From: Nitrososphaerota archaeon
GTDB lineage: Archaea; Thermoproteota; Nitrososphaeria; Nitrososphaerales; Nitrosopumilaceae
Direction: 5' to 3'
Assembly: GCA_016201435.1 (NCBI GenBank)
Contig: JACQCT010000005.1
Coordinates: 1 to 64,000 of the forward strand
DNA: 64,000 nt
Shown: piece after piece, positions 60,838 to 64,000 of the stretch
How positions within the stretch are numbered: the stretch's first letter is position 1
Layout: each line of letters opens with the position of its first letter
Made by a program: the position numbers and the translations under genes
Notes under the pieces: generated by a model
What the model was told of the DNA's origin: nothing
The model's input: only the letters and a program-made list of their open reading frames with translations
Databases searched by the model: none

Positions 60838-63294
60838 TTGAATCCACTTTTAATACTGTGCTGTGTTGTTTTTGTTTTCGGTTCCACTCTTGCTTTTGCT
60901 GACAAGGGAACCTATGTAGACAAGGTACAATTCATCCAATACTCTGATGACAATACGGCATTTGAAGAAGTAAAAAATGGAAATTTGGACATTTATTATT
61001 GGCAAATCCCTTTTGAGAGAATTGCTGACCCTCAATCACGGGAAGGTCTAAAAATATTTCAATCAACTGGTCAATCGTACAGCCTTCTTGTAAACCCAGC
61101 TCCATCTGAAAAATTCAATCCTTTCTCAATAAAAGATGTTAGATTTGCACTAAATTATTTGGTAGACCGAAACCTAATCATTGATGAACTTCTTGGCGGC
61201 TATGGTGTACCGATGGTTTCAGCATACAAACCATTTGATCCTGATTATCTTTTGATTTTGGATGAGCTTGAATCATTTAACTTTAGATATAATCCTGTAT
61301 TGGCAGAACAAATGATCACAGACTCTCTTACAAAGGCGGGAGCGCAAAAGATTGACAACAAATGGTACTATGATTCAAAACCAATAGAGATTACAATTTT
61401 TATTAGAAGCGATGATCAAATACGAAAGTCAATTGGTGAGGTAATTTCTTCACAGCTGGAAAAAATTGGATTTTCTATAAAAAGAGATTATGGCGATTTA
61501 AACAAGGCATTTACGATTGTATATGGTTCAAACCCATCTGATCTAAAATGGAATATCTACACTGAGGGATGGGCAGCAAGTGGCTTTGTAAGATATGATT
61601 CGGTTCTTACCGCACAAATGTATTCCCCCTGGTTTTCTAACATGCCTGGATTTAACAATCCGTCATATTGGAATTACAAAGATGATTACATGGATTCTAT
61701 TTCACAAAATATTTTTCTTGGAAATTTTACATCAGCAGAACAAAGAACTGAATTATTAAAAAAAGCAGTAGATGAAGGCATTAAAGAATCTGTTAGGGTT
61801 TTTCTTGTAAGTAAAATTGATCAGTATGTGTCAAACAAGAAAGTAGATGGAATAGTAAATGATTTTGGTGCTGGAATAACAAGCAGGTTTACTCCTATCA
61901 ACGCAAGGGATAATTCTGATTCTCTAACAATAGGAGTACACAAAATTTACCAGGGCGCTTGGAATCCTGTTGCAGGTTTTAGCGATTCTGCAAGCCAGCA
62001 AATTTTGGGTGCAATATCTGACCCGGGAAGCTTCAAAAATCCATATACTGGAGTAACCATTCCTGTTCGCTCTAGTTGGAAAGTAGAGACTGCAGGTCCA
62101 GCGGGCAAGCTAGATGTACCATCAGATGCAATAAAATGGGATCCCACTCAGCAAAAATGGATTCAAGTTGGCAATAATGTAAACTCTACAAGCAAAGTAA
62201 CATTTCATCTAACATTTGGAAACTGGCATAATGGTCAAGCAATGGACATGAACGATGTCTTATATTCGATTTATTTCCTATATCAGTGGGGAGCAGAACC
62301 TTCAGAAAATAGCAAGACATTTGATTCGGAATATTCGCCAAAGGCAAATCAGGCTGCAAAGACGCTAATTGGAATTAGAGTTATTGATAAAAACACAATC
62401 GAAGTTTACCAGGATTATTGGCATTTTGATGAAGGGGAGATTGCTGATTCTGCAGGTGTTTTTCCTTCAATGCCATGGGAGATATTTTATGCCATGGAAA
62501 AATCTGTGACTGATGGCAAGGTTGCGTTTTCAAGATCAGAAGCTGTTAGCAAAAATGCTGACTGGCTTTCGTTGCTTGTTCCAAATGATGCAAATATGAT
62601 AAAATCAACTCTGGAAGATTTTTCAAAATCAAATTCTATTCCTGTGGCTTTAGCAGGATTTGATAAAAATTCTAAATACTATTCTGAAAGGTATTCTGCA
62701 TCTGTATCATGGATTGAAAAGCATAACCATGCGGTAATAAGTGATGGACCGTTTTATCTTGATAGTTACTCTCCCGAGGCTAGAATCATAACAATAAAGG
62801 CATTTGATGATCATACATATCCATTTGGAACAGGTTACTGGAAAAAATTTGAGAACATTAATGTTGCCAAGATAAATAGAATTGATGTTCCTACAACTGT
62901 TTCATTAGGAAAAGAATTGACAATTCCAATTTCGGTTACATCTAATTGTACAATTTACTATTATTTCCTAAATGCCGATGGTAAAGCAGTAGATTCTGGT
63001 ATTTTGCAATCTGGTACTGGAAACACCACTATTGTTTTACCAAAAGAAAAAACATCACTTTTGAGTATGGGTGCAAATGACTTGAAAATATTTGCAGTAT
63101 CAGAATCTGCTCTCAAGCCAGACATTTTCTATACCAGCTTTTTAGGAATTCAAGGCGAAAGCCCTAAAATGCCTGAGATTATACCTGAATCTGGCACTCC
63201 AACTGTCAGTTCAGACTATGTTGTAGTTGGTGGTGTTTTGGCAGCAATTGCTATTGGAATTATAATGGTGTTAAAGAAAAGGAAGAAACCCTAG
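60838..63294 (+). CDS. Circularly permuted SBP_bac_5-type substrate-binding protein (ABC importer)
   Basis: 818 residues from a TTG start. The signal peptide ends TLAFA and its cleavage leaves DKGTYVDKV. The next 310 residues are what is normally the C-terminal half of a DppA/OppA protein: AFEEVKNGNLDIYYWQ, then DVRFALNYLVDRNLIIDELL and GEVISSQLEKIGFSIK. From about 355 the normal N-terminal half begins: SLTIGVHKIYQGAWNP, VTFHLTFGNWHNGQAMDMND, then DGPFYLDSYSPEARI near 635. An Ig-like domain (690-770) and a C-terminal helix (about 791-811) with tail KKRKKP anchor it. It feeds the permease that starts 35 bp downstream. The ligand is peptide- or nickel-like by family, but unknown. Confidence 0.88.
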   Translation: MNPLLILCCVVFVFGSTLAFADKGTYVDKVQFIQYSDDNTAFEEVKNGNLDIYYWQIPFERIADPQSREGLKIFQSTGQSYSLLVNPAPSEKFNPFSIKDVRFALNYLVDRNLIIDELLGGYGVPMVSAYKPFDPDYLLILDELESFNFRYNPVLAEQMITDSLTKAGAQKIDNKWYYDSKPIEITIFIRSDDQIRKSIGEVISSQLEKIGFSIKRDYGDLNKAFTIVYGSNPSDLKWNIYTEGWAASGFVRYDSVLTAQMYSPWFSNMPGFNNPSYWNYKDDYMDSISQNIFLGNFTSAEQRTELLKKAVDEGIKESVRVFLVSKIDQYVSNKKVDGIVNDFGAGITSRFTPINARDNSDSLTIGVHKIYQGAWNPVAGFSDSASQQILGAISDPGSFKNPYTGVTIPVRSSWKVETAGPAGKLDVPSDAIKWDPTQQKWIQVGNNVNSTSKVTFHLTFGNWHNGQAMDMNDVLYSIYFLYQWGAEPSENSKTFDSEYSPKANQAAKTLIGIRVIDKNTIEVYQDYWHFDEGEIADSAGVFPSMPWEIFYAMEKSVTDGKVAFSRSEAVSKNADWLSLLVPNDANMIKSTLEDFSKSNSIPVALAGFDKNSKYYSERYSASVSWIEKHNHAVISDGPFYLDSYSPEARIITIKAFDDHTYPFGTGYWKKFENINVAKINRIDVPTTVSLGKELTIPISVTSNCTIYYYFLNADGKAVDSGILQSGTGNTTIVLPKEKTSLLSMGANDLKIFAVSESALKPDIFYTSFLGIQGESPKMPEIIPESGTPTVSSDYVVVGGVLAAIAIGIIMVLKKRKKP

Positions 63295-63328: not shown

Positions 63329-64000
63329 ATGAGCTTCACACGATTCATCATAAAACGAGCCGTAACAATGTTTGGTGTGCTCATGGCCACATTGCTCATT
63401 ACTATAGCACTTGTTGGCTCTAACATGGATGCTATTTTAAAACAAAGTGTCGCACTTGAGGTACGACAGCAAGTTACTGACAACAAGCACCTAGTTTCAA
63501 GTTTCAAAAATCCGCAAGATCTAGATACATTTGTAGAAAATCAAATTAAACAGAGAACAGAAGCACTAGGACTTGACAAGCCTTGGTACTATCCGCCAAG
63601 ACTTGGACTTTCAATGTACAAGATACTGACACTTGATTTTGGACATGCAAAATTTCTTACTAGTGATACTGGTTCATCTAATGTAAAGGACATCATATTT
63701 GAGAAGATGCCTAGGACAATTTTACTTTTTACAACTGCTACTTTGATAATTTCATTAATTGGAATATTTCTTGGCGCACTTGCCGGAAGCAAGATAAACT
63801 CAAAGCTAGACAAGATAACATCTACTTTTGCTATAATTAGCAGCAGCTTTCCAGTCTGGTGGATAGGCATGCTTATGATCTTTGTATTTGCATTTGTGTA
63901 TCAAATCTTTCCAGCAAGGGCAACTCCATTAATTCCTGTAACTGATCCTGGCTACATTGGTGCACTTTTGTATCACATGGCACTACCATTAATCACACTA
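63329..64000 (+). CDS. ABC transporter permease (DppB/OppB type), 3' partial
   Basis: 224 codons visible and open at the window end. ATG start. It begins MSFTRFIIKRAVTMFGVLMA, a DppB-like N-terminal helix, followed by a loop of about 130 residues including YPPRLGLSMYKILTLDFGHA, the DFG motif of OppB/DppB. The transmembrane part then starts (PRTILLFTTATLIISLIGIF, LGALAGSKINSKLDKITS). It lies 35 bp downstream of the permuted binding-protein gene; further permease and ATPase genes are expected beyond the window. Confidence 0.88.
   Translation, partial: MSFTRFIIKRAVTMFGVLMATLLITIALVGSNMDAILKQSVALEVRQQVTDNKHLVSSFKNPQDLDTFVENQIKQRTEALGLDKPWYYPPRLGLSMYKILTLDFGHAKFLTSDTGSSNVKDIIFEKMPRTILLFTTATLIISLIGIFLGALAGSKINSKLDKITSTFAIISSSFPVWWIGMLMIFVFAFVYQIFPARATPLIPVTDPGYIGALLYHMALPLITL

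Follow-up and report, generated by a model that had tools for sequence, protein, structure and literature searches.

The window analysed here is a stretch of 64,000 nucleotides (positions 1 to 64,000 of contig JACQCT010000005.1, forward strand) from a Nitrososphaerota archaeon of the Nitrosopumilaceae, and it contains a gene for a circularly permuted family 5 substrate-binding protein. The open reading frame (ORF) lies on the plus strand at 60838-63294, with a TTG start at 60838 and the stop at 63294, and encodes 818 amino acids (aa); M1 is kept in more than 90% across 42 homologues. A predicted signal peptide (aa 1-21, MNPLLILCCVVFVFGSTLAFA; 60838-60900), which forms an N-terminal helix in an AlphaFold2 model, is followed by the part of the fold that is second in canonical family 5 proteins and comes first here (aa 25-355; 60910-61902), within which segments C1 (aa 25-90) and C2 (aa 90-355) are distinguished. 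The joint that fuses the canonical C- and N-termini (aa ~356-361; 61903-61920) leads into the canonical first part, now second (aa 361-680; 61918-62877). Between the binding domain and the C-terminus lies a beta-sandwich-like domain (aa ~683-775; 62884-63162; modelled strands at aa 679-771), and the chain ends with a hydrophobic helix (aa 793-815; 63214-63282) followed by KKRKKP, a predicted membrane anchor. The preliminary description of this gene had named an Ig-like domain and a C-terminal anchor; the AlphaFold2 model supports the beta domain and the anchor helix, and the Ig-like label falls away, as the domain has no Pfam match. The signal-like N-terminus and the C-terminal helix, each apparent in both sequence and model, are predicted export and surface features.

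In a comparison with Pfam SBP_bac_5 (PF00496), the whole protein scores 97.1 bits against a cut-off of 32.4 (E = 1.5e-27), with model positions 146-350 matching aa 25-249; when the second half is scanned by itself, model positions 18-143 match aa ~453-670 (E = 4e-4). Given that the later part of the model precedes the earlier one, the protein is a permuted variant of PF00496 and not an ordinary member. The nearest solved relative by sequence is the oligopeptide-binding protein OppA of Thermococcus kodakarensis (PDB 7fi3; E = 1.4e-53), and in single-sequence matches aa 370-662 correspond to residues 18-309 of its chain (i-E = 1e-29) and aa 29-272 to residues 324-592 (i-E = 8e-23). A family profile, A1, built from 33 relatives and aligned to 7fi3, fits as a circular shift (E = 7.8e-95), with profile positions 346-637 equivalent to residues 18-309, 2-247 to 322-591 and 274-334 to 663-723; with this third stretch, the match extends over nearly all of the OppA chain, in shifted order, and the old OppA ends meet at profile positions 334/346. 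Both domain parts of family 5 are present, each of the 7fi3 segments 18-309, 322-591 and 663-723 being matched, and no part is doubled in any of the ~200 full relatives. Judged from its sequence, the window protein is a natural circular permutation: the same parts rotated, each present once, with the old ends joined. This architecture had been proposed in the preliminary description, and the Pfam and 7fi3 matches in shifted order bear it out: a profile search allowing two matches places the C-terminal part of the model ahead of the N-terminal part, and neither a collinear alignment nor a tandem pair of complete domains, both of which were looked for, was seen.

The AlphaFold2 model, computed from 42 sequences (predicted local distance difference test score, pLDDT, 76.9; predicted template modelling score, pTM, 0.70), retrieved OppA 7fi3 as the first-ranked Foldseek match (E = 2.5e-17). 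Going by the domain limits of OppA, both the cut and the old termini would lie in lobe I; this location leaves both hinge crossings intact, which would explain the tolerance of the clamp.

Of 61 close genomes, 50 contain relatives, nearly all of which align over their full length in the same order, and 80 named loci, mainly from Nitrosopumilales, matched over the entire domain. In a phylum-wide sample, a match was present in 306 of 398 genomes, about 240 of them strong (E <= 3e-36). When the two halves were searched separately in 60 genomes from many families, the C-part preceded the N-part whenever both were in one frame, except in G106. The order that had been expected in thaumarchaeal genomes is thus common in related archaea, and that placement proves too narrow because permuted relatives range across the whole phylum; most relatives in this archaeal phylum very probably inherited the permutation from a common ancestor. 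Many genomes with permuted relatives also encode ordinary family 5 proteins of ~550 aa in canonical order, so that the two forms coexist. A second permuted subfamily is shorter (~720 aa; L271-L281) and has the same swapped order: in L279, Pfam positions 145-361 match aa 49-272 (E = 3e-69 for the whole protein) and positions 4-154 match about aa 421-583 (E = 6e-28 for the second half alone), and L271 is similar, so that in the short subfamily both Pfam parts are well over the cut-off.

Two further observations concern individual relatives. A fusion of the permuted family 5 domain with one or two copies of type I binding domains (Peripla_BP_6/ANF_receptor) is encoded at L032:1320-7001 (-) and at L033:632-3913 (-), accompanied in L032 by FG-GAP and SdrD_B repeats, so that two unrelated classes of binding protein reside within one polypeptide. 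The record titled 'Gammaproteobacteria bacterium BBSC-SA02' (L128) holds a thaumarchaeal-type gene with 61% identity to the window protein and is probably a mislabelled or mixed assembly.

The domain was divided into segments N, C1 and C2, C1 and C2 being divided at about position 65 of the C-half, and the order C1-C2-N was found in 198 of 205 ORFs. The canonical order N-C1-C2 is present in four (L222, L282, L283 and L284), all from the archaeal family f39, and L222 is collinear with 7fi3 along the domain. A third order, C2-N-C1, appears in a single ORF, L285, likewise from f39, and recurs in the genome of a second species of the same genus (97% identity to L285). Relative to canonical L283, L285 is rotated, residues 46-364 corresponding to 495-813 (63% identity) and 362-826 to 38-496 (57%), with no residue dropped or repeated at the cut, which presumably lies near the first hinge crossing, again going by the OppA domain limits. 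The joints between segments are shared among these forms: the C1-C2 joint is common to permuted and canonical proteins, the C2-N joint has the same length and 26 of 36 identical residues in permuted L288 (GLWTPWALRTAHTVDGTLTVLEFSSQGALFMSSWNP) and third-order L285 (GLWSAWGLRTATAQDGTITALEFSSTGALFMSAWNP), and the N-C1 joint is alike and of the same length in L285 and L283. The remaining two ORFs lack C1. L215 was rejected as a new order, its gene being cut by a contig end, and L263, which is N-terminally short, was not counted as one; L263:797-3133 (-), in oriented coordinates, is without C1 and the start of C2, yet lies away from the contig end, and may be a truncated gene, a frameshift or another rearrangement.

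For phylogenetic analysis, all sequences were first rearranged into the canonical order, and trees were built with IQ-TREE; Thermococcus OppA was entered as the aligned 7fi3 stretches, with a gap at 605-662. In the tree of 88 sequences, the f39 group, comprising the canonical and third-order proteins, is nested inside the permuted clade, its nearest neighbours being the permuted L288/L265 (support 98.7/100), followed by L267/L266 (99.8/100), and trees of the N-half and of the C-half each place the canonical f39 group among permuted proteins. Constraining the permuted proteins to one clade lowers the log-likelihood by 95 units (approximately unbiased (AU) test, p = 2e-6). Given this nesting and the AU rejection, reversion is the simplest reading, and the canonical order was probably regained in f39. 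The permutation is thus phylum-wide, recurrent and, in one lineage, apparently reversed, which goes beyond the original account of the gene.

A separate permutation was encountered in WP_113156578.1, encoded on a Nitratireductor plasmid (L310:508-2106), which had been taken as an outgroup and is itself permuted with another cut. Positions 375-516 of the canonical model come first, followed by 43-370, so that the cut (model 371/375) falls in the C-terminal lobe; Pfam agrees, and against PDB 5isu, query residues 211-523 correspond to 27-337 and 50-173 to 359-477. Five relatives from Halobacteria and Alphaproteobacteria (L313-L317) have the same order and are encoded beside ATP-binding cassette (ABC) transporter genes. 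In a tree that used the correct rotation of these proteins, five of the six (L313 unsplit) form their own clade (support 97), which is separate from that of the archaeal permuted proteins. By rotation and tree position, the permutation in Halobacteria and Alphaproteobacteria is independent of the archaeal one. Among plasmids, 125 records cover at least 80% of the Nitratireductor protein in a single location, a figure that caps the number of its collinear relatives, and a tblastn search with the window protein returned matches to one half only.

Straight downstream of the binding-protein gene are two PF00528 permeases (E = 2.8e-39 and 2.5e-27), one of the OppB/DppB type (63329-64000 (+), running past the window to 64381) and one of the OppC type (64378-65742 of the contig). 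SBP_bac_5 has a single match in the window genome, which makes the permuted protein the only detected family 5 binding protein of this genome, and it can be predicted to act as an anchored oligopeptide-type binding protein that serves the adjacent OppB/OppC permeases. Four oligo_HPY ATPase genes are found on other contigs (G000:C15 89185-91427 and G000:C16 2435-4673) and form two separate pairs, distant from the binding protein and the permeases; these remote pairs may belong to a split Opp system or may in part be contamination.

Taken together, these results make it very probable that the window gene encodes a membrane-anchored, naturally permuted binding protein of the OppA/DppA type, with a permutation ancestral in the phylum that probably originated by duplication and trimming and was followed by re-permutation in f39. 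The chain begins just ahead of the strand after the GPF/Y motif region, runs through the old C-terminal half, crosses the short joint between the old ends and finishes with the old N-terminal half, this re-threaded domain being framed by the putative signal peptide in front and by the beta domain and anchor behind. The usual two-lobe clamp would most likely form and pass an oligopeptide-like substrate to OppB/OppC. Tandem duplication and fusion, with later trimming, is the probable origin of the permutation; a second duplication in f39 may have restored the canonical order and yielded the third one, as an ancestor of the form C1-C2-N-C1-C2-N would hold all three joints and could be trimmed to both other orders. 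The duplication model predicts precisely such a tandem ancestor, trimming of which yields rotated orders (PMC3320104), and the shared joints support this route indirectly. With moderate confidence, we favour a hot-spot family in which one event founded the phylum-wide archaeal clade, an f39 tandem was trimmed in two ways, to the canonical reversion and to the third order, and the proteins of Halobacteria and Alphaproteobacteria were permuted independently at another cut.

Several observations weigh against this account. The second-half Pfam match of the window protein, scanned alone, is under the family cut-off. The Foldseek alignment to 7fi3, 389 columns long, is a half match (TMt 0.37, root-mean-square deviation 8.9), as expected when a sequential aligner is applied to a permuted chain. 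The C-half tree links the canonical group to its nearest permuted sisters with a support of 0.485, against 1.0 at the next node out. Support for the deep root of the long clade is weak, so that Thermococcus OppA may represent either the ancestral state or a second reversion. Finally, no tandem or part-trimmed intermediate was seen among the ~205 ORFs, so that the tandem step is inferred.

The swapped order could in principle be an error of the metagenome-derived genome, an assembly artefact or a misread frame, given 66 contigs and an estimated contamination of 8.9%; the chance of this is practically nil, as the order is repeated in dozens of independent genomes, including single-contig ones, which refutes an artefact, and the third order occurs in two separately assembled species. 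It is also highly improbable that the gene encodes a tandem pair of part-degenerate family 5 domains that have lost opposite halves and therefore only look permuted. A tandem duplicate is itself a step of the favoured mechanism, and partial deletion would leave a C-part followed by an N-part; however, ~200 relatives hold a single copy of each part, which refutes a double domain as the current architecture, the parts together make up a whole OppA whose former ends are linked by a short joint, and the protein is conserved end to end across the phylum, so that the present-day description is a permutation.

Two alternatives concern the history of the orders rather than the architecture. The canonical f39 proteins might be ancestral, with the surrounding lineages permuted independently at the same site, and the clear recurrence of permutation in family 5 proteins renders repeated events at one tolerant site not absurd. 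Although a single permuted clade fails the AU test, parallel events are compatible with that result taken alone; what renders them fairly unlikely is that at least four independent events with the same cut would be required around f39, compared with one re-permutation, and that the third-order members retain the C2-N joint of their permuted neighbours, with 26 of 36 residues identical. The domain might also have been split into two chains and rejoined with their order exchanged. Such fission and fusion, another accepted path to circular permutation (PMC3320104), is rather improbable here: no free-standing half was found among the loci examined, and the pairwise sharing of the three f39 joints fits duplication better.

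Under duplication and trimming with re-permutation in f39, these proteins constitute a rare natural record of the re-threading of a protein chain, in a family that has undergone three or more further re-cuts, one of which seems to have restored the original order. Circular permutation is mostly inferred between remote relatives, with the path lost; here, there are four cyclic orders of one domain, one pair sharing ~60% identity and having a cut defined to the residue, a lineage has apparently reverted, and all three joints are readable, so that the duplication-and-trimming model becomes testable. A natural reversion with three joints preserved would, if true, record the duplication mechanism directly. 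The tolerated cuts of the two-lobe clamp could be of use in engineering binding proteins as sensors. Domain models that assume collinearity, like fold searches that proceed sequentially, read these proteins of a major archaeal phylum incompletely, leaving half of the domain unreported or below threshold. A literature search returned no description of permutation in a family 5 substrate-binding protein, which is weak evidence of novelty given the thin coverage of subscription journals.

Among known systems, the Thermococcus kodakarensis OppA, like the window protein, has a long-type family 5 domain throughout, in canonical order, of which the window protein is a circular shift with a beta domain and an anchor helix added. 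DppA, OppA, AppA and NikA (PF00496, cluster C substrate-binding proteins) likewise combine both halves of the model with neighbouring OppB/OppC-type permeases, and the window protein differs from them in its swapped halves, with the cut near model position 145. A 'domain dislocation' was reportedly proposed by Fukami-Kobayashi in 1999 as the topology change between type I and type II periplasmic binding proteins. This, too, is a proposed topological rearrangement within substrate-binding proteins, although it concerns strand order between ancient superfamilies, whereas here cyclic orders differ within one family at up to 63% identity. The natural circular permutations of swaposin and DNA methyltransferase have been ascribed to tandem duplication and trimming (PMC3320104). 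Those cases belong to other families; in family 5, by contrast, the canonical order was apparently regained, and two cyclic orders occur in one archaeal family, nested in a third.
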